Below are positions 43,860 to 60,695 of a stretch of 64,000 nt of DNA, one piece after another. The stretch is from Bryobacteraceae bacterium. GTDB lineage: Bacteria > Acidobacteriota > Terriglobia > Bryobacterales > Bryobacteraceae. The position numbers were made by a program, and so were the translations under genes. The stretch's first letter is position 1, and each line of letters begins with the position of its first letter. The stretch lies in contig JAHDVK010000004.1 in NCBI GenBank assembly GCA_023384675.1, forward strand, positions 186,001 to 250,000, read 5' to 3'. The notes below the pieces were generated by a model, which saw only the letters and a list, made by a program, of their open reading frames with translations, was not told where the DNA came from and did not search any database.

Positions 43860-44864
43860 ATGCTCCGCCTCCGGCGAATCCAGGCGGCCTTGCTCGCGGC
43901 CGCGCTACTTGCAGGCGCGGCATGTACGCCGGCGGGAAAGCGCGAGTACCTAAGCGTCGCCGCGATGCCACCCGGCACGTCCTGGTACGTCTTCGGTGCC
44001 ACCCTCTCGAAGCTTCTCGAGGAAAGCCTCCCCGGCAACCTCACCGTCGAGGTGATCGCCCGAGGCGGCGGCATCGGCAATCCGATTCTCGTGGAACGTA
44101 GGCAGGCGTCAGTCGCGATCTCACAGGCTGCTACCGCGGTCTGGGCATACAACGGAACCGGCGCCGTTTATCGCGGCCGCGAGTGCCCCAATATCCGCGC
44201 TCTCGCCGGCGGCCTCAACTCCGTCTGGATGACCGCCCTGCTCACCGAGGATTACATCGCCCGCACTGGCAACGACACGCTCGAAAAGGCCCTCACGTCG
44301 CGCCGCCCCGCGCGCGTCGTCATGAAACCCGCCGGCAGCGTCGTGCCTGTCGTTGCCGACATGCTCTTTGAATCCCTCGGCGTCAGCCGCCGAGACATCA
44401 TCGCCCGCGGCGGCGACATCATCCAGGTCGCCTCCAATCAGATCCCCACACTGCTGCGCGACGGCCGTGCCGACCTCTATATCGAATCTTCCATCCGCGG
44501 CCATCCCACCGTCACTGAGGTCACCACCACCGTCCGCATGCGCTTCATCGACTTCCCCGATGCCGTGCTCGACCAACTCAAGGGCCCCGGCGTCAAGGCC
44601 ACCCCCATGCCCCAGTGGTTCAAGGGCCAGCCCGGACCCACGAAGGCCGTGGACATGGGCACCGTCCTCATCGTCCACAAGGACATGCCTGACGATCTCG
44701 CCTACCTCATCACGCGCATCGTCTGCGAGCAGAAAGACGAGATGGTCAGCGCCCACAAGGCCTGGGCCGACTTCGACCCCGCCCTCGGCGGCGCCCTCGA
44801 CAACACCGGCATCCCACTCCATCCCGGCGCTGCACGTTTCTACCGCGAAAAGGGCTGGCTGTGA
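43860..44864 (+). CDS. TAXI-family TRAP transporter solute-binding lipoprotein
   Basis: Periplasmic binding component of a TAXI-TRAP transporter, 334 aa. The leader ends in a lipobox (ALLAGAAC). Family features include MPPGTSWYVFGATLSKLLEE, VIARGGGIGNPILVERRQAS, AISQAATAVWAY and the later MGTVLIVHKDMPDDLAYLIT. TAXI systems import carboxylates or glutamate-like substrates with an ion gradient. It overlaps the permease start by four bases. Confidence 0.93.
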   Translation: MLRLRRIQAALLAAALLAGAACTPAGKREYLSVAAMPPGTSWYVFGATLSKLLEESLPGNLTVEVIARGGGIGNPILVERRQASVAISQAATAVWAYNGTGAVYRGRECPNIRALAGGLNSVWMTALLTEDYIARTGNDTLEKALTSRRPARVVMKPAGSVVPVVADMLFESLGVSRRDIIARGGDIIQVASNQIPTLLRDGRADLYIESSIRGHPTVTEVTTTVRMRFIDFPDAVLDQLKGPGVKATPMPQWFKGQPGPTKAVDMGTVLIVHKDMPDDLAYLITRIVCEQKDEMVSAHKAWADFDPALGGALDNTGIPLHPGAARFYREKGWL

Positions 44865-46729
44865 TCTCGCTGCTTGAAACCTCCGCCGCGCGCGCGGCCC
44901 GCATTGTGCTCGGCTTCGTCCTGCTCGCATTCCAACTGTTCATCATCATCAACCCGCAACTGCCAATGGTGGAGCGGCCGCTTCACCTGATGATGACCAC
45001 CGCGCTCGCCTTCCTCTGGTCACCGCTCAAGACCCCCGCCGGCTGGCGCGGCGTTGCCTTCAATGCGCTGGACCTGCTGATCCTCGCGGCCATCGCCGCC
45101 TGCACCGCCTATTACATGGTCTCCGTCACGCGCCTCACCGAGCGTATGGAGATGGTGGATCCCATCCTGCCGCACGACATCGCCTTTGGCGTTCTCTTTA
45201 CGGTGGTCCTGCTCGAAGGCGTGCGGCGCACCGTCGGCTGGTCGCTGCTCAGCGTGCTGCTCGTCTTCCTGGCGTATGCGTGGGCGGGCCCGTGGATGCC
45301 CGGCTGGCTCAACTTCTCCGGCTTCGGTCTCGATGCCGTGGTCGAGATGCTGACCATGTCGCTCAACGGCATCCTGGGCATCACCACCGAGACGTCGGTC
45401 CAGTTCGTCTTCTACTTCGTGATGTTCGGCGCGGTCTATTCGGCTGTCGGCGGCGGGCAGTTGTTCATCGACATCGGCCTCAGGCTCAGCGGCCGCTTCC
45501 AGGGCGGCGCGGCGAAGGCGGCCGTCATCTCGAGTAGCCTGATGGGCACCATCAGCGGCAGCGCCGTCGCCAACGTCGCCGCCACCGGAGTCTTCACCGT
45601 CCCCCTCATGCGCAAGGCCGGCTATTCGGCCGAACACGCCGCGGCCATCGTCGCCATCGCCTCCACGGGCGGGCAACTGATGCCGCCGGTGATGGGCGTG
45701 GCCGCATTTGTCGTCGCCGAAATCCTGCAGATCGACTACATCAAGGTCGCCATCGCGGGCCTGATCCCCGCACTGTCGTTCTACATCGCCCTGCTGATGA
45801 TGATCGACCTCAATGCGCGCAAAAGCGGCATCGGCACATTGCCCCCAGGTGAGGCTGTGGCTCACGCACCCATCTTGCCGCGTATCTACCTGCTAGTGCC
45901 GCCGGTGCTGCTGGTGGTTCTGCTTGTGACCGGCTATTCTGCCACGCTGTGCGCCGTCTATGCCACGGCCAGCGCGGTCGCTGTCTCTATCTTCAGCGAG
46001 AAGACCCGCATGAGCCTACGCAAGTTCATCACCACGGTCGCCGACGGCGCCAAGCAGGCCAGTCAGGTCGCCGTGCCCATTGCCGCCATCGGCATCATCA
46101 TCGCCATTGCCATCCAGTCCAACCTCGCCCTGAAGTTCTCCACCAAACTCATCGGCTCCAGCGACGGCAGTTCCATCGGTGCCATGCTGCTCATCATCGT
46201 AGGCTGCATCATCATGGGCATGGGCCTGCCCACGGTGGCCGCCTACATCATCGGCGCCGTGCTTTTTGTGCCCGCTCTACTCCAGTTGGGCATCACCCCG
46301 CTCGCCGCCCACTTCTTCGTGATGTACTACTGCGTGCTGTCAATGGTGACGCCGCCCGTGGCGCTCGCCAGCTATGCCTCCGCGGGTTTGGCCGGCGCCC
46401 ACACCATGCGCACCAGTATGCTCGCCTTCCGCATGAGCTTCGTCTGCTTCCTGATTCCATTCGCGTTCGTTTTCGACCCGCGCCTTCTCGCGCAGGGCCA
46501 AAGCTGGTGGACCCTCGCCGCATTCCTGTCGATGATGGTGGCCACCGCCGCCTGGGCGGTCTCGCTCGCCGGCTATCTCAACCGCCCGCTTGGCTGGGCG
46601 TTCCGCGTGATGTTTGGCGCCTCCGCCGTCGGCGTCATCCTCTCGCCCACCGGCACTTCCTGGTGGTGGTACGCCCTCGCCGCTCTTGGCCTCGTCTCCG
46701 CCGCCGCGTGGCTCACGCGCCGGAAGTGA
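44861..46729 (+). CDS. TRAP transporter fused permease (4TM-12TM)
   Basis: Fused DctQM-type TRAP permease, 622 aa, with a small N-terminal membrane domain and a 12-helix carrier domain. The carrier signatures SSLMGTISGSAVANVAATGV, STGGQLMPPVMGVAAF and CIIMGMGLPTVAAYIIGAVL are typical of TRAP-TAXI fused permeases. GTG start overlapping the solute-binding gene. It works with the lipoprotein to import the substrate passed to the DHDPS-like aldolase. Confidence 0.95.
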   Translation: MISLLETSAARAARIVLGFVLLAFQLFIIINPQLPMVERPLHLMMTTALAFLWSPLKTPAGWRGVAFNALDLLILAAIAACTAYYMVSVTRLTERMEMVDPILPHDIAFGVLFTVVLLEGVRRTVGWSLLSVLLVFLAYAWAGPWMPGWLNFSGFGLDAVVEMLTMSLNGILGITTETSVQFVFYFVMFGAVYSAVGGGQLFIDIGLRLSGRFQGGAAKAAVISSSLMGTISGSAVANVAATGVFTVPLMRKAGYSAEHAAAIVAIASTGGQLMPPVMGVAAFVVAEILQIDYIKVAIAGLIPALSFYIALLMMIDLNARKSGIGTLPPGEAVAHAPILPRIYLLVPPVLLVVLLVTGYSATLCAVYATASAVAVSIFSEKTRMSLRKFITTVADGAKQASQVAVPIAAIGIIIAIAIQSNLALKFSTKLIGSSDGSSIGAMLLIIVGCIIMGMGLPTVAAYIIGAVLFVPALLQLGITPLAAHFFVMYYCVLSMVTPPVALASYASAGLAGAHTMRTSMLAFRMSFVCFLIPFAFVFDPRLLAQGQSWWTLAAFLSMMVATAAWAVSLAGYLNRPLGWAFRVMFGASAVGVILSPTGTSWWWYALAALGLVSAAAWLTRRK

Positions 46730-46737
46730 GCTCGGCC

Positions 46738-47631
46738 CTACAGCCCGGCTTCGGTCCGCCGCAGGTACTGGGCCGCTTCCTGAGCCACAACCTCGCCCGA
46801 GGGCTCGAAGTGGAACACTTCCACCGATACCCATCCCTGGTATCCGATCTCACGCAGCGTCCGGAGCACCAGCGCGAAATCATATTCGCCCGCACCCGGA
46901 TGCCGCCCGTCCATCTCGTTCACGTGCACGTGCCGGATGTGCTTCGCATACCGCCGGATCAGCGCATCGTGCGGCTCTGTCTCGCCCGCCGTGTTGTGCG
47001 TGTCGAACAGCGTCTGCACCGCCGGATGACCGATGCTCTCCACCATCGCTACTGTCTCGGCCATCGTCGTCAGCACGTTCGAGAGGTGCGGTGCCAGCGT
47101 TTCGGGCAACAAAGTCACTCCGCGCTCCGCCGCATGCGGCGCCAGCGTGGCGAGCCCATCGCGAATGCGCCCCACCGCTTCCTGCCTGCTAACTCCCTCC
47201 ACCGCATCACGCTGCCTGCTCGACCCCAGCACTATACCCCCGCCGCCCAGGCCCGCGCACAGGTCGATCAAGCGCCGGAAGTACGCCCAGCTCCGCTCGC
47301 GCACGCCCGCGTCCGGCGTCGTGATGTGCAGCCCCTTGGGCGCGGCCAGCAGGTTGTGCAGCCCCACGAACTCGAGTCCCTCGCCTGCCATCATTCGGCG
47401 CAACTCCGCTCGCGCTCCCGCCGTCAACGCTGCCGGATCATCGCCCAGCGTCGCCGGGCCGATCTCCAGCCCGGTGTACCCGGTGGCCACCGCCAGCCGG
47501 CAAGCCTCCGCAAACCCGGCCTCTCGGAACGTGTTGTTGCACACCGCCAGCTTCATCCCGCTATCGCTCCCGCGCTTCGCGCACGCTGCCGCGGCCAGCC
47601 CCAGTAGCACTTCGCGCCGCCGGGGCTTCAT
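46738..47631 (-). CDS. Sugar phosphate isomerase/epimerase-like TIM barrel protein
   Basis: Xylose-isomerase-like TIM barrel (AP endonuclease family 2 superfamily), 297 aa from ATG 47631 (MKPRRREVLLGLAAAACAKR), which gives a Tat-like leader with a possible lipobox; a longer frame upstream shadows the amidohydrolase. Motifs such as GYTGLEIGPATL, FVGLHNLLAAP, LFDTHNTAG and HIRHVHVNEMD hold the metal ligands. The ATG overlaps the amidohydrolase stop, so it is the last gene of a four-gene minus-strand operon. Substrate unknown. Confidence 0.9.
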   Translation of the reverse strand: MKPRRREVLLGLAAAACAKRGSDSGMKLAVCNNTFREAGFAEACRLAVATGYTGLEIGPATLGDDPAALTAGARAELRRMMAGEGLEFVGLHNLLAAPKGLHITTPDAGVRERSWAYFRRLIDLCAGLGGGGIVLGSSRQRDAVEGVSRQEAVGRIRDGLATLAPHAAERGVTLLPETLAPHLSNVLTTMAETVAMVESIGHPAVQTLFDTHNTAGETEPHDALIRRYAKHIRHVHVNEMDGRHPGAGEYDFALVLRTLREIGYQGWVSVEVFHFEPSGEVVAQEAAQYLRRTEAGL

Positions 47632-48680
47632 AACCTGAACAGCCGCCGCGCATTCGTCGTAAAGATCTTCGTCTCCATGGAGGCAGGCAGCTTCAGGCTC
47701 TTCACCAGGCCCGTGATCATCTTCGGATCCACCCACGGATGGTCGCTCGCATAGAGCATCCGGTCCTCACCCGCGAAGTCGATCCCGTAACGGATCGCCA
47801 GCGCAATCGGCGACACCGTATCGAGCCACACCTGCTTCAGATACTCGCTCGGCGGGCGCTTGATGTTTTCCGCGCCTCGCTTCAACACCTGCGTCTGATG
47901 GTCGAGCCGCCCGATCAGATACGGCAGCGTGCCGCCCACGTGTGGACACACCAGCTTGAGCGCCGGATACTGATCCAGGATGCCCGCCAGGATGATGCGC
48001 GCCAGCGCGATCGTGGTGTCGAACATCAGCCCCAGCCCCGCCGCCATCGTGTAGCCCTTCGTCGCCTCATACGTCATCGGATATGCCGGATGCAGCAGCA
48101 CTGGCAGGTCCAGCTTCACTGCCTGCTCGAACATCGGGCGGAATTGGGGCTCGTCCGGCCACTTGCCCGCCAGGTTCGAATACAGCAGGATGCCCTTCAT
48201 CCCCAGCCGGCCCACGCACCGCTCCATCTCCTTCAGCGACTCATCGATGTTCTGCAGCGGCAGCACCATCAACCCGAAGAACCGCGCGGGGTGCTTTCGC
48301 GTGATGTCCGCCACGTAGTCGTTCACCAGCCGCGCCACGGCCGGGCCTTCGGCCCCGAACAGTTCCGGTCCCGGATCGTTGATGCTGAGGCCCGTCATCG
48401 CGATGCCCGCCTCGTCCATGTCGCGCAGCTTGGCCCCGGCGTCGGTATGCTGCGGCTGCAGCCTTCGCACCCAATCGCCCACCACCACCACTGTCCCGCC
48501 GTCCTGCTGCCGGACGTACGGCGGCTCGTTGCGCTTCTCCATCATCCGGATCAGTTCCGGCACGAAGATGTGGCTCTGGCAATCGATCTTGCCGCTTTCG
48601 GCTGACTGCATCCCGCTCATCGTTGCTCCCAGGCCCGCGCCCAGCGCGGCGGATTGAATGAACTCACGCCGGTCCCTCAT
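47628..48680 (-). CDS. Amidohydrolase-family protein (ACMSD-like)
   Basis: Amidohydrolase_2/ACMSD-type TIM barrel, 350 aa, with leader MRDRREFIQSAALGAGLG (RR, Tat-like). Metal-binding positions: CQSHIFVPE (in place of DxHxH), LLHPAYPM (His), VCPHVGGTLPYL (His) and LYASDHPWVDP (Asp). Members decarboxylate or hydrolyse aromatic or sugar-derived carboxylates. It lies between the oxidoreductase and the isomerase in the same operon. The altered first motif (SQ-H rather than D-H-H) is a caution about activity. Confidence 0.88.
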   Translation of the reverse strand: MRDRREFIQSAALGAGLGATMSGMQSAESGKIDCQSHIFVPELIRMMEKRNEPPYVRQQDGGTVVVVGDWVRRLQPQHTDAGAKLRDMDEAGIAMTGLSINDPGPELFGAEGPAVARLVNDYVADITRKHPARFFGLMVLPLQNIDESLKEMERCVGRLGMKGILLYSNLAGKWPDEPQFRPMFEQAVKLDLPVLLHPAYPMTYEATKGYTMAAGLGLMFDTTIALARIILAGILDQYPALKLVCPHVGGTLPYLIGRLDHQTQVLKRGAENIKRPPSEYLKQVWLDTVSPIALAIRYGIDFAGEDRMLYASDHPWVDPKMITGLVKSLKLPASMETKIFTTNARRLFRL

Positions 48681-48686
48681 CGCGGC

Positions 48687-49712
48687 CTACATCCCCGAGG
48701 CTTCGATGATGCACTCCTGCACCACCAGATCCTCGTGCGGCGACACCAGCAGCGGCGCCTCGCCGCGAATCGCCTTGGCGAACTCCACGAAGTCATCTTC
48801 GAACCGCCGGTACTTCGGCAACTCAACGGTCTGCGGCCCCTTCTGATACGCCCCCGCTGCCTTGTGCAGGTCCATCGTCAGCTGCGGCGGTTCGATCGGC
48901 GACATGGTCGCCGTTCCGTTGCTGCCGCTCACCACGAAGCTGCGATAGCGGCTCCCATTGGGGTCCAGCGCCGAGCCGACGACCACGCCCAGCGCGCGCG
49001 GGAACTCGAACACGGCGATCGTGTTGTCCGCTAGGTTGTCGGGGAACGCTCCGTGCTTCTTCAGGTACGGCGTAATGCGGTCCGGCCGCCCCATCAGCAG
49101 CACCATCTGATCGATGATGTGCGACCCCAGTTCGAACATCTGCCCCCCGCGGAACCGTGCCCATTCAGGCCGCCGCTCCGGCTCGAGCGTCTTGTTGATC
49201 TTGGCCTCCACCATGTACACCTCGCCGAGCCAGCCGCCGCGCACCGCCTCGGCTATTCTGCGGAAGCCCGGATGATGCCGCCACATGTAGCCTTGCTGGA
49301 ACACCAGCTTCCTGCGCGCCGCCAAGTCCAGCATGTTGCGGAACGCGGCCACGCCCAGCGACGGCGGCTTTTCGATGTGGACATGCTTGCCCGCCTCGAG
49401 CGCCAGCGCCGCGTGCCGCGCATGGTCGATGGTGTCCGACTGCACCACTACCGCCTCGACAGCCTTGTCGCCCAATATCCTGTCCAGCGTCAGCACCGTC
49501 TCGCCCCGCCTGGCGAACTGCGCCCGCACCTCCTGGTCTTCATCCCACACTCCGGCCAGCGCGAACTCCGGCGAGGTCTTCACCACCTCGAGCTTGCCCC
49601 GCGTGTGCGAATGGCTCGCGCCCAGAAAAGCCGTCCTGATGGGCTTGCCCGCGCCGCGCATCGGCGTCGCCGCGGCAGCCAGCGCCGCTCCCAGAAACTG
49701 TCTCCGCTGCAT
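48687..49712 (-). CDS. Gfo/Idh/MocA-family oxidoreductase with Tat leader
   Basis: Third exported Gfo/Idh/MocA oxidoreductase of the window, about 341 aa from the ATG at 49712, preceded by GGGAG at nine bases; an ATG at 49721 is in frame. Leader MQRRQFLGAALAAAA has twin arginines. The nucleotide site IRTAFLGASHSHTRGK is followed by EKPPSLGVAAFRNM (EKP) and FELGSHIIDQMVLLMG. GASHSHTRG replaces the usual GxGxxG, so cofactor binding may be atypical. Operon with a PmoA-like protein upstream and amidohydrolase downstream. Confidence 0.9.
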   Translation of the reverse strand: MQRRQFLGAALAAAATPMRGAGKPIRTAFLGASHSHTRGKLEVVKTSPEFALAGVWDEDQEVRAQFARRGETVLTLDRILGDKAVEAVVVQSDTIDHARHAALALEAGKHVHIEKPPSLGVAAFRNMLDLAARRKLVFQQGYMWRHHPGFRRIAEAVRGGWLGEVYMVEAKINKTLEPERRPEWARFRGGQMFELGSHIIDQMVLLMGRPDRITPYLKKHGAFPDNLADNTIAVFEFPRALGVVVGSALDPNGSRYRSFVVSGSNGTATMSPIEPPQLTMDLHKAAGAYQKGPQTVELPKYRRFEDDFVEFAKAIRGEAPLLVSPHEDLVVQECIIEASGM

Positions 49713-49727
49713 TCGGACCATCTCCCT

Positions 49728-50699
49728 TCACTTCCTGGCCGCGTAATCCGCGAACATCCCGTCCAGCTTCGTCGCGGGCGTCTCTCCATCCATCACTACC
49801 ACGCGGTACCGGAACGCCTGCTTGCCGCCCTCCGGAATTGTGAAGCCCCCGTCTCGCGTCTTGTCGCGCGTGAAGCTCCGAAGCCCGAACGGATTCGCGG
49901 CGAACAGGCCATAACCCCGCGCGTGCCACGTCGTCGGGTGACGCAGGTTCGACGGGTGATCGAGCACCGCCACGCCCGCCGTCTTCCCGTCCACCTTCGC
50001 CTCGTAGTGAACCCACTTCGCCGGCTTGCCCCAGATGTTCTCCGTGCCCACTAGTCCTTCGGAGTTCGCCAGCCGCGCCCCACGGTCCTGCCGGAATTCC
50101 TCCCGCAGCCGCACGCCGAAACCGCCATCGTCCGTGTCGCCGAACTTCAACGGCACGCCGCGATCCGCGCTCACCTCGATCACCACGTCGATCAACCCCG
50201 CCTCGCCGTCGGGTCGGAACGTATACGTCTCGCGGATGCTGCCGATGACGCCAGACTTCGCGCTTTGCATATGCAACAGCGCTGTCAGACTCGCCCCGCT
50301 GACCGCCGGGGCGCCATGCAAAACGAGCCGCGAAGTTTTCTCCCGTCCCTGCTCGCGCCAGAAGTCCTCGCCGTTGATGTCGCCATGCCCGAACCAGATC
50401 CCGCGGTGCCAAATGTGGTCCTCGGAATCGCCCGGCAACGGGCTCACCGGATACCCGCGCGACACCAATACGCCGGCCGGCGTCCGCAGCGGATGCAGAA
50501 ACGGCTTGTCCCACTTCGCGTGATAGTGGAACGCGGTGTACGACCGCCCGCCCTGCATCACCTCGGCCTCGTCGTGACCGACGCGAATCGACACGGCGGC
50601 CGGCGATTGAGCGCCGGCCGTACCCGGCATCGAATTGCAACCCCAAAGCCATGCCGCCATCGCGGCGGCAATCGCAAGAAAGAGATGTCGTTGGTTCAC
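49728..50699 (-). CDS. PmoA-family (DUF6807) lipoprotein
   Basis: PmoA-like beta-sandwich protein, 323 aa, GTG start with GGGAGG seven bases upstream. A lipobox (LWGC) lies near residue 21. Family features include HPLRTPAGVLVSRGYP, DHIWHRGIWFGHGDINGEDF and TWHARGYGLFAANPFG. These proteins are not the particulate methane monooxygenase; they are frequent beside Gfo/Idh/MocA genes in carbohydrate loci and have no established reaction. First gene of the four-gene operon running to 46738. Confidence 0.88.
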   Translation of the reverse strand: MNQRHLFLAIAAAMAAWLWGCNSMPGTAGAQSPAAVSIRVGHDEAEVMQGGRSYTAFHYHAKWDKPFLHPLRTPAGVLVSRGYPVSPLPGDSEDHIWHRGIWFGHGDINGEDFWREQGREKTSRLVLHGAPAVSGASLTALLHMQSAKSGVIGSIRETYTFRPDGEAGLIDVVIEVSADRGVPLKFGDTDDGGFGVRLREEFRQDRGARLANSEGLVGTENIWGKPAKWVHYEAKVDGKTAGVAVLDHPSNLRHPTTWHARGYGLFAANPFGLRSFTRDKTRDGGFTIPEGGKQAFRYRVVVMDGETPATKLDGMFADYAARK

Positions 50700-50803: not shown

Positions 50804-52486
50804 TTAGGGCTTACCCGTCCTCTGCATCGGCTCTGGTCTCTCCACCAGCCGCTGCACCCAACGGAACCGCGCCGGCGGCCGCGGGGCCTCCGACGTCCAA
50901 TGCGCGATCATCGTGTACAGCCCGATCCGCAGATTCTCCCGCTTGCCTGTCAGCCGCACTCCATCCCCGATCGGAACGTACTTCCGCCCGTCCCTGCTCG
51001 CGGATGCTGTGAGGATATCGTCCCGCACGTCAAGCCGCAGGATCACCGGCGGCGCGCCGGGAAAATCGTTGATCCTCTGGTCCTCATCGTGGGTGCGTTC
51101 GAGCGTGAGCATGTTGCTGTGGAAGTGTCGGCGCGAAAGGTGTGTGGAGCCGCTGCCGGTTCCGCGGACTACCAATCCGGCCGCGCTCCCGGACACCGGC
51201 AGGAAGTCCATCAATGTCGCGAAGCTCCAGTCACCCTCCGGAGCAGGTCTCGTGAAGTACCAATTGCAGCCCACCGCCGAGGGCGCGAAACCCACCTGCA
51301 GCGCGCCTCCGTACAAGCTGGCGCTGGTGTTAGCGCCGCAATCGCTATCCTCGCGCCAGGCGGGGAAGTCTGCTGCGCGGAAGGGTCCTTCCGGCCGGTT
51401 GTGGAATGCCGGTCCGGACCGGAAACCATTGAATGCCGCCACCGCCGAAGGTCCGTCCGAACGCCCGTTGTACGCATAGATCGCCGCCCGCTGCACCGGG
51501 GGCAGCCCCGGCACGTCCACCGGCGGCGCAAACCGGGTCCAGTCGAACCCGTCGGCGCTGATCAACGCCTGATAGCCTGAGCCGTCCCGCCGCAGCGACA
51601 GCCATCTCGGCCGCCCGAACTGTCCCAGCCGGTCCGCAAGAAAGTGGCTCTGGTTCTGATTCGGAACCGCGTTCACCTCAAAGCTCTGCTCGAGCATGGC
51701 CCGGTCTTTGAAGTGCTGCCCGAACCTGACAAAGTGATCCGCGTCGCCCAACACCATCACCCCCGCCTGCTGCGTGGCGCTTTCCGGCGCAAAGGTTAAC
51801 TCCACAACCGCATCTTCGCCCTGCTCCAGTTCCGGTCCTACTCGAACTGCGTCCGCCGCCACGTCCAAAGGCTTGCCGCGCAGATCGCCGCGCTGCGTCA
51901 GAATGACAATCGCCGAGGGAGCCTGCCCGCCTTCCGCCTCCGGCGGTGGCGCCCAACGCAACGCCAGCCAGCCGCCCACCGTCAGCAGCAGGGCGACTGG
52001 AACCAGCCACCAGCCGAAACGCCGCCTGCCCTGCGCCCGTGGCTCTCCAGAGGCCGCCGGCCCGGCCTGCTGCTCCGGTGATGTCTCCTCAACCACGCGA
52101 TAGCGGAACCTGGGAATGTAGGACCGCCGCGGCAGGCTGATCACCAACTGCTCCGCCGCGCCCTCCCCCTCGAAGTACTCTTCCAGCTTGCTCCGCACCT
52201 GGCTCGCCAGTTTCCGCACCGAAGCGTCGTCCAGTGGATTGAAGTCCTCGTTCCGGTGCAGCACCTGCTCGGCGATCTCGTATTGGTCGATCTCCGTCCG
52301 CCCCTCCAGCGCCGCCTGACCTGTGAACTGCAGGAATTCGCTCATGCGCCGCGACCCGGCAAACGCCTCGCTATCGGTCACGCGCTGCAATGCCGCACGG
52401 AAGGCTTCCACCTCCGCCTTGCTCACCGCCGGTGCCGCCGCTGTGTCCGGTTCGTGTTTATCCATCATGGATGGCCGTGGCTGCAT
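50804..52486 (-). CDS. Membrane-anchored winged-helix-like regulator with concanavalin-like domain
   Basis: A 560-aa protein with three parts. Residues about 25-140 form the acidobacterial winged-helix-type domain that usually opens large regulators (FRAALQRVTDSEAFAGSRRM, EYEI-like QYEIAEQVLHRNEDFNPLDD, VRKLASQVRSKLEEYF, VISLPRRSYIPRFRY). A single membrane helix lies at about 165-185 (WWLVPVALLLTVGGWLALRW). The remainder resembles a DUF1349/LamG-like beta-sandwich (SLRRDGSGYQALISADGFDW). This looks like a one-component transmembrane sensor with the DNA-binding part in the cytosol and a carbohydrate-binding part outside. It is divergent from a TonB receptor, which is the obvious target. Confidence 0.8.
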   Translation of the reverse strand: MQPRPSMMDKHEPDTAAAPAVSKAEVEAFRAALQRVTDSEAFAGSRRMSEFLQFTGQAALEGRTEIDQYEIAEQVLHRNEDFNPLDDASVRKLASQVRSKLEEYFEGEGAAEQLVISLPRRSYIPRFRYRVVEETSPEQQAGPAASGEPRAQGRRRFGWWLVPVALLLTVGGWLALRWAPPPEAEGGQAPSAIVILTQRGDLRGKPLDVAADAVRVGPELEQGEDAVVELTFAPESATQQAGVMVLGDADHFVRFGQHFKDRAMLEQSFEVNAVPNQNQSHFLADRLGQFGRPRWLSLRRDGSGYQALISADGFDWTRFAPPVDVPGLPPVQRAAIYAYNGRSDGPSAVAAFNGFRSGPAFHNRPEGPFRAADFPAWREDSDCGANTSASLYGGALQVGFAPSAVGCNWYFTRPAPEGDWSFATLMDFLPVSGSAAGLVVRGTGSGSTHLSRRHFHSNMLTLERTHDEDQRINDFPGAPPVILRLDVRDDILTASASRDGRKYVPIGDGVRLTGKRENLRIGLYTMIAHWTSEAPRPPARFRWVQRLVERPEPMQRTGKP

Positions 52487-52881
52487 TGCAATCCCTGCCT
52501 CAGTGTTGACAGCTTACCATCGCATCCCGCCGGCCACAATGGCAGGCCGGCTTGGCAGGCCATCGCCAGCGCTTCACTTAAGAACGTTCCTTGCACCCGA
52601 GGAACGATCCGGCACTTCTGCTGGCTCTGCATACCGGGTGTACACTGATTCAACTCGTTGCAAGGGGCGTCTGGAGTAATCACCCGGAGCCAGCCCCCGT
52701 CGTGGTACAGCCCTATCGGCGCATGTCCGCCGCAGAAGTTTCCGGTGATGGAAGAAATAATGAAAGCCCGGCGGAGTTCTCGTTTCCGCGGCAGATCCAC
52801 ATCCCGAACGCTCGGCCACACCGCCCTCAAGCGCCTGCGGATGATTACCGCGTTCGTAACTGCAATTCGAAGGAGATCAGA
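52487..52881. other. Divergent regulatory region between sensor gene and receptor
   Basis: About 395 noncoding bases. AGAACGTTCC (52581-52590) and GGAACGATCC (52601-52610) lie 20 bases apart, two helical turns, and match the palindrome seen upstream of other catabolic units. An open frame over the receptor-proximal half lacks coding character; the receptor starts at 52883 behind AAGGAG. Confidence 0.5.
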
Positions 52882-52882
52882 G

Positions 52883-55873
52883 ATGAACATGCGAACTCTC
52901 GCAACCGCGCTGGCCATCGTCTGCGCCGCGCTGGCGCTTCACGGAACCGCCAGCGCGCAGGTCATTACGTCCACCATCTACGGCAGTGTGGCCGATCCCA
53001 GCGGCGCAGGTATCCCCGGCGCGAGGGTGACGGTCAGCAGTGATCGCACCGGCACCAGCGCCACCGCCACCACCGAACCCTCCGGCGAGTTCACCCTCTC
53101 GTCCCTTCAGGCTGGCATATACTCAGTTCAAATCGAAGCTAATGGCTTCAAATCCGTCCGCCGGACCGGAGTCGCACTCGCCTCCGGCGCCCGCACCCGT
53201 CTCACCTTTGAGCTCGAACTCGGCACCGTCGCCACTGCTATCGAAGTCTCCGGCGCCGCCCCGCTGATCAACTCCATTAACGCCGAGCAGCGGACGAACC
53301 TCGACACTTCTCAGGTTCGCGAGTTGCCCACCCAGCGCCGGAGCTGGCTCGGCCTGCTCAACCTCGATACCGGGGTCACCACCACCGGCGGCCGCGTCGC
53401 CATGAACGGGCTCCCCCCGTCTTCGTTCCGGATCACTGTCGATGGCACCGACGCTTCCTCGGACAGTGAGCAGCCTTCAGTCACCATGTCCGGCAACTTC
53501 AACTTTATCCAGGGAGTCAGCCTGGAAGCGGTCGATGAGGTGAACGTCGCCAAGGGCATCGCCTCGGCCGAGATCGCCAATACCATGTCCGGCAACGTCA
53601 ACGTCAACACCAAGCGCGGCACCAACGAAGTCCACGGCAGCTTATTTCACGTCAACGACGTCGAGAACACCAACGCCCGGAACCAGTTCCTCGCCGCGCG
53701 GCCGCCAGTTGTCTACAACCAATTCGGCGGCTCCCTTGGCGGGCCCCTCATACGCAATAAGCTCTTCATGTTCGGCGTCTATGAAGGCTACCAGCTCCGC
53801 GGCTTCCAGCAGTTGAACGGCAACGTGCCCACCCGCGAGTTCCGCGAACAGGCTACTGCCGCCGTCCCGGCCTACGGCGCCCTGTTCGACCTCTTCCCGC
53901 TGCCCACCAACCCCTATGCTGCCGGCGCCGTCACCGGCTTCTTCCAGGGGGCCGGCTCCGAAGTCGCCCGCGACAACCACGCCGTCCTCCGCGGCGACTA
54001 CCACCTCGGCAGCAACACCATCCTCAGCGCTCGCTACACCCGCGGCCGGCCCTTCCGCCAGATCCCACGCGTCGCCTTCGCCAACTTCCGCGACTGGGAC
54101 GGCAAAACCGAGGTCGGCAGCTTCAACGTCACCCACTCCCGCGCCACTTGGGTTTCGGAGACCCGATTCGGCTTCAATTACAACTTCAGCCGCCGCATCG
54201 ATAACATCTACACTCTGGGTGTAGCCGGCGTTGGCGGCGCCATCGGCTTCAGTACCAGCGGCGAGGACATCCTCCGTGACGGCAGCAACTGGTCCCTCGA
54301 ACAGGTCTTCGGCAAAACCATCGGCCGCCACTCCCTCCGCTTCGGCGGCATCTATGGCCGGCTCCGCGTCACCCGGGAGAACATCGAAATGCCTGAGGTC
54401 CGCTACGCCAACATCAACGATTTTCTGGCGAACCAGCCCAACTTCGTCCAGGTCACCTTCGGCGTCGATGATTTCGCCATACTCGCCGCCAACTACGGGT
54501 TCTTCATCCAGGACGACTTCCGTCTCAGCCGCCGCCTCATGCTGAACCTCGGTGTCCGCTACGACTACTACACCGTGCCCCGCGAACGCGACGGCCGGTT
54601 CTTCAATCGCGACGCCCCCTTCGGCGCCGGACCCTTCCGCGACCCCGAGAGCATTTACGAAGCCGACCGCAACAACTTCTCACCCCGCATCGGCTTCGCC
54701 TACACCGCCGACTCCGACGGCAAGACCGTCATCCGCGGCGGCTTCGGTATGTTCCATAGCCCCCTGCCGATCTTCGGCTCATCCATCGACAACGTGCAAA
54801 ACGCGGCCGATGAGCCCTTCCGCAGCCAGTTCTCTGCCGCCGATGTAGCCCGCTTCGGAGACGTCCTCCGCTACCCGGTGGTCAACAGCCAGGTGCTCCC
54901 GCTCGTCAAGGGCCAGCCCGGTCTCGGCGGCGGCACTGTCGTGGATCCCGGCCTCCGCAACCCCTTCAGCTACCAGTGGACCCTCGGCGTCCAGCGCCAA
55001 CTCGCCAACAACCTCGTGCTGGAGACCGCCTATGTCGGCAACCGCGGCGTCAACGGCATGATGGTCCGCGAGTGGAACCGGCCTGACCGCGTCACCGGCG
55101 TCCGCCCCAACCCCAGCTTGACCACCTTTCGCTACCGCGATTCCGCCGAGTCCAGCAACTACAACTCCTGGCAAACCTCGCTCCGCAAGCGTTTCTCCCA
55201 CGGCTTCAGCGCCAACCTGAACTACACCTGGGCGCGCCTGATGTCCTATACCGGTGATGCCGACCTGCTGCTGCCTGCCACCGTCCAGGATGTTGACAAC
55301 ATCAATGCCGACTACGGTCCCGCCAACCTCGATGTTCGGCACCGCTTGGTAGTTGACTTCCTCTATGAACTGCCCTTCGCCCGCCTCTCCGCCGCCAGCA
55401 ACAGCCGGGCCGGCAGGCTGCTGCTCCGCGGCTGGCAGATCAACGGCATCATGACCGCCCAGTCCGGCAGCCCGCTCAACCTCTCTGATCCCACCGGCCT
55501 CGGAAGCAGCCGCCCCGACTACGTCGGAGGCCAGGTCTACACTGGTACCGGCCGCGAAAACCTCCAGTACATGAACCGCGCCGCATTCGCCAATGTACCC
55601 CTGAATTCCGTGAGCAGACTCCCCGTCCGTCCAGGCAATGTCGGACGGAACGCCGTTTATGGCCCTGGCTGGTTCGACCTCGGCGCCAACCTCGCCAAAT
55701 CCCTCGAACTGACGGAGTCCATGCGCCTCCAGGTCCGCGTCGAAATGTTCAACGCCCTCAACCAGACGTACTTCTCCGGCATCCAGGGCAATATCAACCA
55801 GGCCAACTTCGGCCGCTTCACCAGCACCCGCGGTGCCCGAGTCATCCAGCTCGGCGCCCGCTTGTCCTTCTGA
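52883..55873 (+). CDS. TonB-dependent receptor, Oar-like
   Basis: Receptor of 996 aa. The start is the ATG behind AAGGAG; signal peptide MNMRTLATALAIVCAALALH ending near ASAQ. A carboxypeptidase-regulatory domain (ITSTIYGSVADPSGAGIPGA, TVSSDRTGTSATATTEPSGE), a plug (LDTSQVRELPTQRRSWLGLL) and a barrel with terminal VIQLGARLSF follow. It is not a close copy of the other receptors here. Divergent from the transmembrane regulator and followed by a hairpin and the sialidase-like gene, it probably handles the glycan or glycoside of that locus. Confidence 0.93.
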   Translation: MNMRTLATALAIVCAALALHGTASAQVITSTIYGSVADPSGAGIPGARVTVSSDRTGTSATATTEPSGEFTLSSLQAGIYSVQIEANGFKSVRRTGVALASGARTRLTFELELGTVATAIEVSGAAPLINSINAEQRTNLDTSQVRELPTQRRSWLGLLNLDTGVTTTGGRVAMNGLPPSSFRITVDGTDASSDSEQPSVTMSGNFNFIQGVSLEAVDEVNVAKGIASAEIANTMSGNVNVNTKRGTNEVHGSLFHVNDVENTNARNQFLAARPPVVYNQFGGSLGGPLIRNKLFMFGVYEGYQLRGFQQLNGNVPTREFREQATAAVPAYGALFDLFPLPTNPYAAGAVTGFFQGAGSEVARDNHAVLRGDYHLGSNTILSARYTRGRPFRQIPRVAFANFRDWDGKTEVGSFNVTHSRATWVSETRFGFNYNFSRRIDNIYTLGVAGVGGAIGFSTSGEDILRDGSNWSLEQVFGKTIGRHSLRFGGIYGRLRVTRENIEMPEVRYANINDFLANQPNFVQVTFGVDDFAILAANYGFFIQDDFRLSRRLMLNLGVRYDYYTVPRERDGRFFNRDAPFGAGPFRDPESIYEADRNNFSPRIGFAYTADSDGKTVIRGGFGMFHSPLPIFGSSIDNVQNAADEPFRSQFSAADVARFGDVLRYPVVNSQVLPLVKGQPGLGGGTVVDPGLRNPFSYQWTLGVQRQLANNLVLETAYVGNRGVNGMMVREWNRPDRVTGVRPNPSLTTFRYRDSAESSNYNSWQTSLRKRFSHGFSANLNYTWARLMSYTGDADLLLPATVQDVDNINADYGPANLDVRHRLVVDFLYELPFARLSAASNSRAGRLLLRGWQINGIMTAQSGSPLNLSDPTGLGSSRPDYVGGQVYTGTGRENLQYMNRAAFANVPLNSVSRLPVRPGNVGRNAVYGPGWFDLGANLAKSLELTESMRLQVRVEMFNALNQTYFSGIQGNINQANFGRFTSTRGARVIQLGARLSF

Positions 55874-55923: not shown

Positions 55924-57057
55924 ATGCCCGACCGAGCCATCGCACCTACCCGCCGCCTTCTGATTGCGCTCGGCCTTACCTCATTCCCGTCCCGGCTGGC
56001 TTCCAGCACCACTGCCAGAAACGTCGTCGTCCACCACCAGCCCGGCCGCTTCTGCGGATGGCCCGCAAACAACGGCGTGTGGATCTGGGGCGACGAGATT
56101 CTCGTTGGATTCGTGTACGGCCACTTCAAAGCCGATGAGAAATCGCACTCGATCGACCGTGACAAGCCACAGGCAAGTGTGCTCGCAAGAAGTTTGGATG
56201 GCGGCGAAACATGGGCCCTCGAAGACCCCGGTCACTTTGTGCTCGACGGCGGAAAGCCCGCCCCCAGCCCCGGCAACATTCAATACGGCCACCCCGATTT
56301 CGCCATGCGCGTCGGCAATCACACGCTGATTGGCAACAAGGACGAGGAAGGGCTTTTCTTCATCTCCTATGACCGCGGCAAGCGCTGGCAGGGGCCCTTT
56401 CGATTTCCCTCCTTCGACCTGCCCATGACCTCGCGGACCGACTACCTTGTCGAAGGCTCCGAGTCTTGCTTGATCATGTTGTCCGCGAATTACCCCGGTG
56501 TGAAGGGCGGCAATTACCAGGACCGCGCCTTCGCTGTGCGCACCACCGACGGCGGTAAATCCTACCAGAAGCTGGGTTGGCTCGCCGGCCCCTCCATCGA
56601 CGCGAGGAGCGTGATGCCGTCCACGGTCCGACTTGGCGATGGCCGCTATCTGACTGCATTGCGCAGGAAGACCAGCACGCCCAATGGTCAACGCAACTGG
56701 ATCGATGTGTTTGGCACCGATGACGGCGGTGCAACCTGGCGGTTTCGAAGCACTGCCGTCGATGGCCTGGAGCACAACGGTAATCCCCCGAGCTTGTGCC
56801 GCTTACTGGATGGCCGCCTCGTGCTCGCCTATGGCGACCGGACGCCGCCCTACAGCATCAAGGCCAGGATCAGTGCCGACCAGGGTTTGAGCTGGGGGCC
56901 TGCCATCATTCTCCGGGAGGATGGCCGCAACTGGGACATCGGATACACTCGGACCGTCCAGCGCCGTGACGGCAAGCTCGTCACCATCTACTATTTCACG
57001 ACCACCCAACTCCCCGAAATGCACATCGCCGCCACCATCTGGGAAGCCCGCAAATAA
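55924..57057 (+). CDS. Sialidase/BNR-repeat family exo-glycosidase-like protein
   Basis: Six-bladed beta-propeller protein of 377 aa. Several Asp-box motifs are visible: SLDGGETWAL, SYDRGKRWQGP, TTDGGKSYQKL, TDDGGATWRFR and SADQGLSWGPA. The leader (APTRRLLIALGLTSFPSRLA) has twin arginines and predicts export. The layout fits exo-alpha-sialidase-like glycosidases, although a sialidase arginine triad cannot be confirmed by eye and the actual sugar is uncertain. It follows the receptor by about 50 bases. Confidence 0.85.
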   Translation: MPDRAIAPTRRLLIALGLTSFPSRLASSTTARNVVVHHQPGRFCGWPANNGVWIWGDEILVGFVYGHFKADEKSHSIDRDKPQASVLARSLDGGETWALEDPGHFVLDGGKPAPSPGNIQYGHPDFAMRVGNHTLIGNKDEEGLFFISYDRGKRWQGPFRFPSFDLPMTSRTDYLVEGSESCLIMLSANYPGVKGGNYQDRAFAVRTTDGGKSYQKLGWLAGPSIDARSVMPSTVRLGDGRYLTALRRKTSTPNGQRNWIDVFGTDDGGATWRFRSTAVDGLEHNGNPPSLCRLLDGRLVLAYGDRTPPYSIKARISADQGLSWGPAIILREDGRNWDIGYTRTVQRRDGKLVTIYYFTTTQLPEMHIAATIWEARK

Positions 57058-58157: not shown

Positions 58158-60695
58158 TCAGAATTGAAACCGGACGCCGAGTTGCAGCCTGCGTGAAGGC
58201 TGGGTGGCGACTGCTTGGCCAAAGAACGGCGAGGTCAGCGATCCGGCGAAGTTTTGGTAGTTGACCCGGTTGAGGATGTTGAAGGTATCCATCGCGAGAG
58301 TAACGCTGGGGCTCTTATCCTTTCGGGCCGGCAGCAGGCGAATGTCGCGATACCAGCGCAGATCGACAATGGCCGCTCCGGGCCCGTTTCCCGTGTTCCG
58401 GGCGATCCCGATTGGCCGGTCGAGTGCCATGCCGTCGCCATTTTCGTCGCGTCCGGTCGTGATGTTGAACGGGATGCCGGACAGCAGGGAAACCGAGAGC
58501 CCAAAATTCGCCCATCGGTGGAGTGTGGCCGTGCCGAGGAAGTTGAATTGCTGGCGCCGGTCGGTGTCGGCGCGGCCCCACTCGCCGGCGGGCGCGAAGC
58601 TGTTGGCGGGGAACCAGTTCACTCCACCGGTGTCGGACATCGTCTTGCCAAACACATACTGAACCATCCCGTTGACCCGCGGACCCAGGCCGCCGCGCAG
58701 GTTCACTTCGAGCGCGTTCGCTTCGAGGCGACCGGCGGACTCGATGTCGCGCAAGACGTTGACGCGGCCGTCAGGCCGAATGGCGAACCCCGGCGGCAGT
58801 GGTGCGTTCGCGTCTCGCGAACGGAGCAATTGCACACCGCGCGTGCCCACATAGTTCACACTCAGCGTCGTCCTCTTGGCCAATTGATGTTCGACCCCGA
58901 GATTGAACTGCATCATATTCGGGAGTCCGGCGCCAGCTTGAAGCCGGTGAATGCTGGTGGGCAAGGCGCCCAGCTCGGGCGGGATGGCGCCGTTGATGAC
59001 GTAGCGCCGCAGTTGGCTGCCATTGAATCGGAGGATGTCCCAAATCGGCCCGGGGCCGGAACGGTCAAAGAAGTATCCGGCGCCGGTACGGATCACGGTC
59101 TTTCGCGACTTGGCCGGCGCCCAGGCGATGGAGAGGCGAGGAGCGAAATTGTTGGTGTCGCCGAAGTAGTTCTGCCAGTCATAGCGCAAGCCCGCGGCAA
59201 TCGACAGCCCAGGACGAACTTGCCACTCATCCTGGAAGAAGCCGCCGACGTTCTTTTCGATGAAGATGGTCCGCGGGTCACCGTGCTGGAGCACAGCGGC
59301 GAAGGGGCGGTTTGCGGCAAAGGCGTCGAGGGAGGCGAAGGATAGCGTCCCGATCTGGTTCGCCCGGTCAGAGAGGCCGCGACGGCTCCAGTCCGGAATG
59401 TTGAAGCCGTACTTGAGCGTGTGTTTGCCCAAGGTCTGCGTCAGCAGCCAAGTGATGGAGGTGTGAAATTCGGTGGACAGGCGATCTGCCTGCGCACCCC
59501 CGCCGGTGAAGGCGTCGATGACGGACACGCGGGCAGCGTCGAGATTACTCTTGGTGGGCGCCCAATAGCGCCCCACCAGGATGCGGAACTGCGACAGCAG
59601 ATTCTTGTTGACAATCGCGCGGTGGTTGAAGACGAACTCGTCTTCCCGCATCCGGCTTTGCGTGCCCGCCTCGCCGAGCGTAATACCACCAACCCCCAGA
59701 TTGTTCTGCCATCGATCCTGGAAGTTGTACTGCCAGAAGATGGCCTGCTGGTCGTTGAACTGGTGGCTGATACGCAGCGAGGCGACAGTGTTCATTTGCG
59801 GCGTGGGCACGTTCTCGTTGACCGGCCCGCCGGGTCCCCTGGCGAAGACCACGGCGAACAGGTCCTCTTCCTCGCGCGCGGCGGAGAGAAGAAACGAGGT
59901 CTTCTTGCTTCTGGCCACCGGCCCGAACAGGCTGCCTTCCCAGATGCGCCGCTGCTCCTGAGGCCTCGTGGCGGCAAGGGCGTCCCGCGCGTTCAGCCGG
60001 TAATCGCGGAACAGGAAGTTGAGTGTCCCGTGATAGGCATCCGCCGAGGACTTCGTGATCACTTCGATGCGCCGCCGACTCCAGCGCGGGTATTCCACCG
60101 TGTAAGGGTTGTTGTTGATGCGGATCTCCTGGATGGCCGAAGCGGTGACGCCTGCATTCCGCATCTCCATTCCATCCACCACGATGGTGGTTCCGGAACC
60201 CCCAGGCGTGCCGGGATCAAGGAACCGTCCCAGCGCTGACAAGTAGTTGTTGTCGAGAAACGGAAGGTTGTCCAGCATGGTTCGCTCGACCGAGATCGCG
60301 TCGGCATTGCGGTCGACCTGTGGCTTAACCGTTCGATCGCCCTCTGAGACGTTCAGTTCCTCCCTGATCGCGGCAATCGTGAGCCGCAGCCGCAGCGGGC
60401 GGTTCGAGCGTGGTCCCGTGCGCACGCGCTGCGCAATCCGGTCAAATCCGGGCACGTCGCACCGTAATTCGTAGCTGCCCGGCGGAACGTTGTCGAAACG
60501 GAACTGCCCCGTTGGACTGGTCGATGCTTCCCAGGCCTGGCCGCCGCCGGCCAGCACGATCCTGACCGCCGGCACGGGAGTATCGGATGGGTCCACGAGC
60601 GTGCCCGTCAGCGGAGCTAACGCAATCGCACGCTGGGGCGGCTGGGCGAGGCCGCTGACGGTAGTCACGAGCAGAAGGCAAAGCAGTTCGAGCAT
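58158..60695 (-). CDS. TonB-dependent receptor linked to OmpR-type two-component system
   Basis: Oar-like receptor of 845 aa; signal peptide MLELLCLLLVTTVSGLAQ, a carboxypeptidase-regulatory domain (LTGTLVDPSDTPVPAVRIVL), a plug with FLDPGTPGGSGTTIVVDGME, and barrel ending LQLGVRFQF. It is paralogous to 31250-33802: the FLDPG...DG(L/M)E, LLRSRDANAP and FNILNRVNY segments align. Its ATG directly abuts the histidine kinase stop, so kinase, regulator and receptor are one transcriptional unit in the order regulator-kinase-receptor. Confidence 0.93.
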   Translation of the reverse strand: MLELLCLLLVTTVSGLAQPPQRAIALAPLTGTLVDPSDTPVPAVRIVLAGGGQAWEASTSPTGQFRFDNVPPGSYELRCDVPGFDRIAQRVRTGPRSNRPLRLRLTIAAIREELNVSEGDRTVKPQVDRNADAISVERTMLDNLPFLDNNYLSALGRFLDPGTPGGSGTTIVVDGMEMRNAGVTASAIQEIRINNNPYTVEYPRWSRRRIEVITKSSADAYHGTLNFLFRDYRLNARDALAATRPQEQRRIWEGSLFGPVARSKKTSFLLSAAREEEDLFAVVFARGPGGPVNENVPTPQMNTVASLRISHQFNDQQAIFWQYNFQDRWQNNLGVGGITLGEAGTQSRMREDEFVFNHRAIVNKNLLSQFRILVGRYWAPTKSNLDAARVSVIDAFTGGGAQADRLSTEFHTSITWLLTQTLGKHTLKYGFNIPDWSRRGLSDRANQIGTLSFASLDAFAANRPFAAVLQHGDPRTIFIEKNVGGFFQDEWQVRPGLSIAAGLRYDWQNYFGDTNNFAPRLSIAWAPAKSRKTVIRTGAGYFFDRSGPGPIWDILRFNGSQLRRYVINGAIPPELGALPTSIHRLQAGAGLPNMMQFNLGVEHQLAKRTTLSVNYVGTRGVQLLRSRDANAPLPPGFAIRPDGRVNVLRDIESAGRLEANALEVNLRGGLGPRVNGMVQYVFGKTMSDTGGVNWFPANSFAPAGEWGRADTDRRQQFNFLGTATLHRWANFGLSVSLLSGIPFNITTGRDENGDGMALDRPIGIARNTGNGPGAAIVDLRWYRDIRLLPARKDKSPSVTLAMDTFNILNRVNYQNFAGSLTSPFFGQAVATQPSRRLQLGVRFQF

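Follow-up and report, generated by a model that had tools for sequence, protein, structure and literature searches.

The 64,000-nucleotide stretch of DNA analyzed here (the window), from a soil-type acidobacterium of the Bryobacteraceae, carries, on its minus strand, a gene encoding a 560-residue protein, P0001. A chance open reading frame was ruled out because six other genomes, found in a GTDB scan, encode sandwich-bearing relatives of P0001 at 36-75% identity. The original prediction had placed this frame exactly at 50804-52486, leaving its strand unstated, and had set it divergent from a TonB receptor gene; a gene of the CarboxypepD_reg/OMP_b-brl_4 type does begin at 52883, so the intergenic stretch given at the time (52487-52882) was also correct. 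The features of the locus are as follows.

50804..52486, minus strand: transmembrane regulator gene (ATG start, 560 aa, P0001; open reading frame and relatives in six other genomes)
52094..52420, minus strand: OmpR/PhoB-like winged helix without a family model (residues 23-131; AF2, VIA, hhalign)
51953..52009, minus strand: single hydrophobic (transmembrane) helix (residues ~160-178; hydropathy and a low-confidence model helix at 161-178)
51410..51910, minus strand: first beta-sandwich, GH43_C2 (residues 193-359; Pfam and model)
50837..51394, minus strand: second beta-sandwich, with the fold of a GH43 C-terminal domain (residues 365-550; VIA and profile)
52511..52539, minus strand: sigma70-like promoter of the regulator, TTGTGG-17 bp-TAAGCT (by eye, uncalibrated; similar pair with a 17-bp spacer in L062)
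52580..52605, minus strand: candidate operator with a GTTCC and a GTTC half-site at a distance of 20 bp (footprint; kept in the nearest relative)
52883..55873, plus strand: divergent Oar-type TonB-dependent receptor, probable target (Pfam OMP_b-brl_4, CarboxypepD_reg, TonB_dep_Rec_b-barrel; 90% gene in L054)
55924..57057, plus strand: BNR-repeat (sialidase-like) protein (Pfam BNR_2; 79% in L054)
49728..50699, minus strand: DUF6807 protein, next gene downstream (Pfam PF14100, 213 bits; in 4/6 other loci)
48687..49721, minus strand: Gfo/Idh/MocA oxidoreductase (Pfam; 49-62% relatives in 3/6 other loci)
47628..48680, minus strand: Amidohydro_2 protein (Pfam; 62-69% relatives in 4/6 other loci)
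46738..47736, minus strand: xylose-isomerase-like TIM barrel, AP_endonuc_2 (Pfam; 49-56% relatives in 4/6 other loci)

The window neighbors were compared with the six other loci by tblastn. At least two of them are present in five of these loci, of which L058 and L059 are near-identical, and one is present in L056, which is the L060 gene cut by a contig end; contig ends shorten both L056 (4.1 kb) and L057 (on its upstream side). The Gfo/Idh gene has an extra, weaker relative (36%) in one more locus, the Oar/TonB gene is found in two of the six (90% and 29%), and the BNR gene in one (79%). Three relatives covered over more than 400 residues were among the matches listed for 100 relatives, and the GTDB scan found these and three more. 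Proteins with the sandwiches thus form a rare branch, one that has retained its neighboring genes. Xylose-isomerase-like barrels, Gfo/Idh enzymes, and BNR proteins are common in carbohydrate loci. Beside the cut relative in L056, an open reading frame at 1397-2626 appears BNR/sialidase-like by eye, with no match to the window BNR protein at E 1e-10. In the window, a DctM-type TRAP transporter permease recognized by Pfam (44861-46729) adjoins the locus and is a possible uptake system for the locus product, and a second Oar/TonB-type receptor, read from sequence alone, lies at 58158-60695 on the minus strand.

Pfam matched P0001 in the sandwich region alone, leaving residues 1-190 blank, and a PDB sequence search with the protein returned a single match at E 0.59. 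No kinase or receiver domain was matched by Pfam at E up to 1, in agreement with the earlier proposal of a regulator working without a kinase. An NCBIfam anti-sigma match at residues 107-185 (17.9 versus 100 bits) was sub-threshold and was not taken as meaningful. The AlphaFold2 model of the whole protein, built from an alignment of seven sequences, had a mean pLDDT of 78.4 and contained helices at 23-37, 40-43, 46-60, 68-74, and 89-106, strands at 114-117 and 126-129, a low-confidence helix at 161-178, and then two beta-sandwiches. The anatomy proposed earlier was thus largely right in its winged helix and its one helix, and wrong in its single sandwich.

When modeled alone with AF2, the N-terminal domain (N-domain) reached a pLDDT of 88.7 and a pTM of 0.82, and comprised two helices (15 and 4 residues) followed by a helix-helix-helix-strand-strand order. 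Foldseek ranks 1-7 were OmpR/PhoB-class DNA-binding domains (E 0.31-1.5). In VIA, where the Z-scores stayed below 8 throughout, a range flagged by the tool as possibly reflecting no more than a common arrangement, the top row was PrrA (Z 7.8; rmsd 3.6; 89 aligned). Rows 1-17 (Z 7.8 to 6.3), including SaeR, CpxR, RstA, PhoB, and OmpR, were response regulators and what we take to be OmpR-class domains, and row 25 was a chain of the ToxR/TcpP complex 9gds (Z 5.5). Local hhalign comparison of a profile of 42 N-domains with 13 Trans_reg_C domains from the same genome yielded a probability of 75-77% and a score of 31.3, against 20.9 for the best of 200 column-shuffled profiles and 10.4 for the reversed profile, with an alignment spanning helix 2, the recognition helix, and the wing; global alignment yielded a probability of only 5.8%. 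P0001 has no Pfam match to PF00486 (Trans_reg_C), and no curated DNA-binding cut-off in Pfam or NCBIfam was passed by P0001 or by any of the 12 N-domains scanned, one of which reached PF00486 at E 0.00094 and none of which had an NCBIfam match. Searched against PDB sequences, the N-domain profile had a single weak match, to an adenylate kinase (E 0.46). The helix-turn-helix and C-terminal wing of the model resemble those of solved OmpR-class domains. OmpR/PhoB domains start with an N-terminal four-stranded beta-sheet, which is absent from the N-domain model, where helices stand at 23-37 and 40-43 instead. The structure prediction suggested earlier as a check of the N terminus thus returned a winged helix at residues 23-131 with OmpR/PhoB-class DNA-binding domains nearest to it, and the N-domain models as an OmpR/PhoB-like winged helix, a predicted DNA-binding head outside the curated family models of Pfam and NCBIfam.

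The best 19-residue Kyte-Doolittle mean in P0001 is 1.73, in line with the one membrane helix proposed earlier, here at ~160-178 with a model helix of low confidence. Four K/R residues precede this helix and one follows it. Among 42 distinct family members, 33 have a hydrophobic segment after the domain (19-residue mean of at least 1.4), and the K/R count before the segment exceeds that after it in 19 of the 33, equals it in 12, and is smaller in two. The full-length relatives L057, L058, and L014 have equal counts on both sides, and the full-length relative L013 (= L061) peaks at a hydropathy of 0.93, under the 1.4 limit. A cytosolic head is favored because of the K/R excess before the segment across the family, and this positive-inside signal favors an N-in/C-out topology for P0001 rather than the opposite one, which the original prediction had named as evidence against itself. 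The order of parts in P0001 would then run from an N-terminal winged helix through one helix to C-terminal sandwiches, with sidedness taken from the charge pattern alone.

The first sandwich matched GH43_C2 (PF17851) at 40.7 bits against a cut-off of 22.7, with the best stretch at residues 226-325, and fell below the cut-off for DUF1349 (PF07081; 23.2 versus 32.4 bits). For the second sandwich, VIA returned the C-terminal domain of the GH43 enzyme 6ms3 (Z 18.9; rmsd 2.5; 180 aligned) and 3mep (Z 18.4), an Erwinia protein that we take to be a DUF1349 member. P0001 therefore resembles GH43_C2 by sequence in sandwich 1, and GH43 enzymes and 3mep by fold in sandwich 2, whereas, unlike GH43 enzymes, it has no catalytic GH43 domain by Pfam and carries two tandem sandwiches on a regulator. 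Profiles of the two sandwiches matched each other weakly (hhalign E 9e-5; probability 59.5%), as would fit a duplication, and invariant W/F/D/E/N residues are present in them. The "DUF1349/LamG-like sandwich" described earlier was accordingly of the right, sugar-binding-like type; it is in fact two tandem sandwiches (193-359 and 365-550), nearer to GH43_C2 than to DUF1349.

Upstream of the regulator, the window and its closest relative share a 26-bp site, GTTCCTNGGN5AGGAACGTTCTT, present as a single copy in each of the two genomes (G000 and G001) with 3 mismatches allowed. Uniqueness of a 26-bp site is expected in itself; therefore, its conservation and the lack of a second site are what counts. 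Downstream of the site, both genomes have a promoter-like TTGTGS-17 bp-TAAGCT pair, whose -35-like box is 40 bp away in one and 61 bp away in the other; this shift of 21 bp corresponds to two helical turns. Related half-sites precede the regulator start in other loci: ATTCC and four GTTCC at 86, 75, 64, 53, and 43 bp in L059/L058, three GTTCC at 61, 51, and 41 bp in L061, and GTTCC at 76 with GTTC at 46 and 36 bp in L060. In the window, GTTCC stands at 119 bp and GTTC at 99 bp, and L062 has the same pair 20 bp apart; the 388 bp present upstream in L057 hold no GTTC and one reverse half-site, GGAAC, at 39 bp. When the last 150 bp were searched without a preset motif, the arrays of L059, L058, and L061 exceeded all 60 shuffles. 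The window promoter array was not above chance in this search (57/60 shuffles reached it), nor was that of L062 (20/60), and that of L060 (6/60) was not clearly so; the best L057 array was reached by 2/60 shuffles but has another sequence. Across seven whole genomes, triple exact GTTCC at 10-11 bp occurred in three, two of which are the near-identical pair L058/L059, and each time only at the regulator promoter, against 0/7 for the reversed pattern. The L055/L061 array is flanked by the regulator on one side and by a divergent DUF6807 gene on the other.

The same spacing was followed across the N-domain family. Three copies of the half-site GT[GTC][AC]N at 10/11 bp were found in 7 of 41 upstream regions (the 42 less L058, near-identical to L059). 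This motif, fixed in advance, gave 0/99 on fresh N-domain-family genes (0/100 with L074) and was therefore dropped. A second, motif-free test was selected once the motif had failed and was viewed on both sets before being run with controls on these fresh genes, only the 10/11 spacing being preset. It detected 5-mer direct repeats at 10/11 bp in 33/99 N-domain-family genes versus 26/149 others (Fisher p 0.003) and a 6-mer repeat in 18/99 versus 7/149 (p 0.0007). With L074 included, the 5-mer count of 33/100 compared with a shuffle mean of 12.4, was reached in 0/100 shuffles, and stood against 12/96 in DNA farther upstream. Eleven other spacings showed no excess over the 149 control genes; an apparent excess at 21/22 bp (22/100 versus a shuffle mean of 11.4) was gone against them (35/149). 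The fresh genes were taken in listed order from 108 rows without a locus, excluding three own-genome rows already used, four rows of low contig coordinate (two of which, being on the minus strand, perhaps had enough upstream DNA), and one with an internal stop; the L074 region, cut by its contig, held coding sequence and was left out, reducing 100 to 99. A first control of 71 genes, 18 of them with the 10/11 repeat and thus not clearly below 33/100, was replaced because genes of the loci in question were inside it. The 149 controls, intergenic upstream regions that were drawn from 20 stretches of 20 kb and mostly belong to the same family, are richer in G+C (0.60 versus 0.54); the 80 controls with G+C up to 0.60 gave 14/80 for 5-mers and 2/80 for 6-mers. 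Collectively, these counts support, but do not prove, binding of the N-domain to half-sites arranged in tandem at intervals of one helical turn.

The N-domain is present ten times in the window genome, joined to differing C-terminal parts. Paralogs L003 and L008 join the head to TPR parts with sub-threshold TolB/FlgO matches, whereas L002, L004-L007, and L009 have a C-terminal part of ~250 aa with no Pfam match above the cut-off. L008 (1444-3243), in which the TPR part (sub-threshold FlgO) follows the head, shows no clear membrane helix and is probably a soluble version. L010 (1459-1956; G000:C53) encodes 166 aa, a winged helix and a membrane helix with almost nothing more, and is a sensor-less version; its sub-threshold Trans_reg_C match (18.1 versus 26.2 bits) is the sole one among the nine paralogs scanned. 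The C-terminal parts of these nine are unlike that of P0001 and have no GH43_C2 match. In a whole-protein search, 70 of 101 close relatives matched, nearly always through the N-domain among the matches listed, and a phylum-wide draw found the N-domain in 27/199 genomes. Plasmids contributed 272 records with the N-domain, mostly from Sinorhizobium, Rhizobium, and their kin, and also from Azospirillum, Sphingobium, and others. Acidobacterial and rhizobial members thus share the head of P0001, some being TPR-fused, and several plasmid relatives among the matches listed (30 rows) are named adenylate cyclase or hypothetical. The matched part of the rhizobial "adenylate cyclase" proteins is the winged-helix N-domain, and the name may be a misannotation.

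How P0001 relates to known regulators can be judged part by part. Tandem direct half-sites in PhoB and CpxR lie about one turn apart. The OmpR/PhoB class (PF00486) shares with P0001 its helix-turn-helix and wing, as well as such half-sites, whereas P0001 has no PF00486 match and no receiver domain and is membrane-anchored. ToxR and CadC, described in part in PMC10269533, place an OmpR-like winged helix at the cytosolic N terminus, followed by a single membrane helix and an extracytoplasmic C-terminal sensor. P0001 has its parts in the same order, with a predicted cytosolic head, and has the 9gds chain (ToxR/TcpP) among its fold matches; unlike them, P0001 has a head missed by the Trans_reg_C model, N-terminal helices rather than strands, and two GH43_C2-type sandwiches as its sensor. 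According to PMC3878776, SusR of Bacteroides is a membrane regulator with a periplasmic glycan sensor and a cytosolic DNA-binding part beside glycan-use genes; its DNA-binding part is C-terminal, and its predicted direct repeats are 67 or 77 bp apart. P0001 reverses this domain order, with its DNA-binding-like part N-terminal and its repeats 10-11 bp apart, and is likened to SusR by its predicted parts and role. By the features tested, P0001 is neither a PF00486 member nor a SusR. A membrane-bound regulator with an outside sensor is a known principle, as both sources indicate (PMC10269533; PMC3878776). Transmembrane transcription regulators are defined there as proteins combining a predicted transmembrane region with a predicted DNA-binding domain (PMC10269533), and P0001, with its hydrophobic helix and DNA-binding-type fold, is one by prediction. 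The same survey identified DNA-binding domains by Pfam models (PMC10269533), and P0001 has no Pfam DNA-binding match; because of this reliance on Pfam, regulators with this DNA-binding domain alone probably went uncounted. Among the open-access papers listed in our searches, we recognized none on the head family or on a tandem GH43_C2 sensor.

Building on the domain anatomy, fold class, conserved neighborhood, and genome-unique promoter-proximal site, all established computationally, we read P0001 as a one-component transmembrane transcription regulator that controls the adjacent glycan-use locus, with a ToxR/CadC-like layout and a SusR-like role (probability of about 0.66). The cytosolic N-terminal winged helix would bind the one-turn-spaced direct repeats between the regulator and its divergent neighbor, and the membrane helix would link this head across the inner membrane to two periplasmic GH43_C2-type sandwiches. 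These would bind a glycan fragment, probably imported to the periplasm by the neighboring TonB receptor. Ligand could then alter the dimeric or clustered state of the heads, the membrane helix transmitting the signal, and both divergent promoters would be activated, that of its own operon (DUF6807, Gfo/Idh, amidohydrolase, sugar isomerase) and that of the TonB/BNR side. The one-component reading of the original prediction is partly supported in this way by the fold, the charge pattern, the conserved neighbors, and the genome-unique candidate operator; its single-sandwich sensor gives way to a tandem one nearer to GH43_C2.

Control might also have another sign or reach, P0001 being a transmembrane regulator that acts as a repressor, or only on itself, leaving the divergent TonB gene uncontrolled. 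The GTTCC-type repeats 36-86 bp before the start in L059/L058, L061, and L060 lie near or over the expected -35 and hence fit repression as well as class II activation; yet several catabolic genes stay in the locus despite changed orientation, and the L055/L061 array faces the divergent DUF6807 gene as well as the regulator. We consider such a repressor or autoregulator unlikely. What the sensor reads is a separate matter, sugar binding by the sandwiches being predicted from fold and gene context. The ligands of ConA-like sandwiches are many, and the GH43_C2-type domain serves as an accessory domain in GH43 xylosidases, so that P0001 might instead sense a protein partner, the cell wall, or the TonB receptor itself; against this stand the neighboring genes for the xylose-isomerase-like barrel, the Gfo/Idh enzyme, and the BNR protein, and we hold a non-sugar signal to be doubtful. 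It is highly improbable, in our estimate, that the N-domain is a winged-helix-like protein-interaction module on a membrane scaffold or surface lectin. The missing curated DNA-binding match, the moderate fold match, and the adenylate cyclase names of some plasmid relatives would suit such a protein, whereas the Trans_reg_C profile similarity across helix 2, recognition helix, and wing, the enrichment of one-turn repeats at promoters of the N-domain family, and the unique site at the window promoter speak for a DNA-binding head.

For the family as a whole, a broader picture has about even chances of being right. An unmodeled OmpR-like family, expanded in Acidobacteriota and present also in Rhizobiales, would provide a constant head and membrane-helix chassis for swapped sensors, and its glycan-sensor branch would be the acidobacterial counterpart of SusR/HTCS control in Bacteroides, reading an outside sugar and binding one genome-unique operator. 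The winged-helix reading of the N-domain suggests a testable function for a family that has ten copies in the window genome and whose plasmid relatives are called hypothetical or adenylate cyclase. In the glycan-sensor branch, where the predicted operator is specific and the target locus defined, sensing, DNA binding, and target control would each be directly testable.
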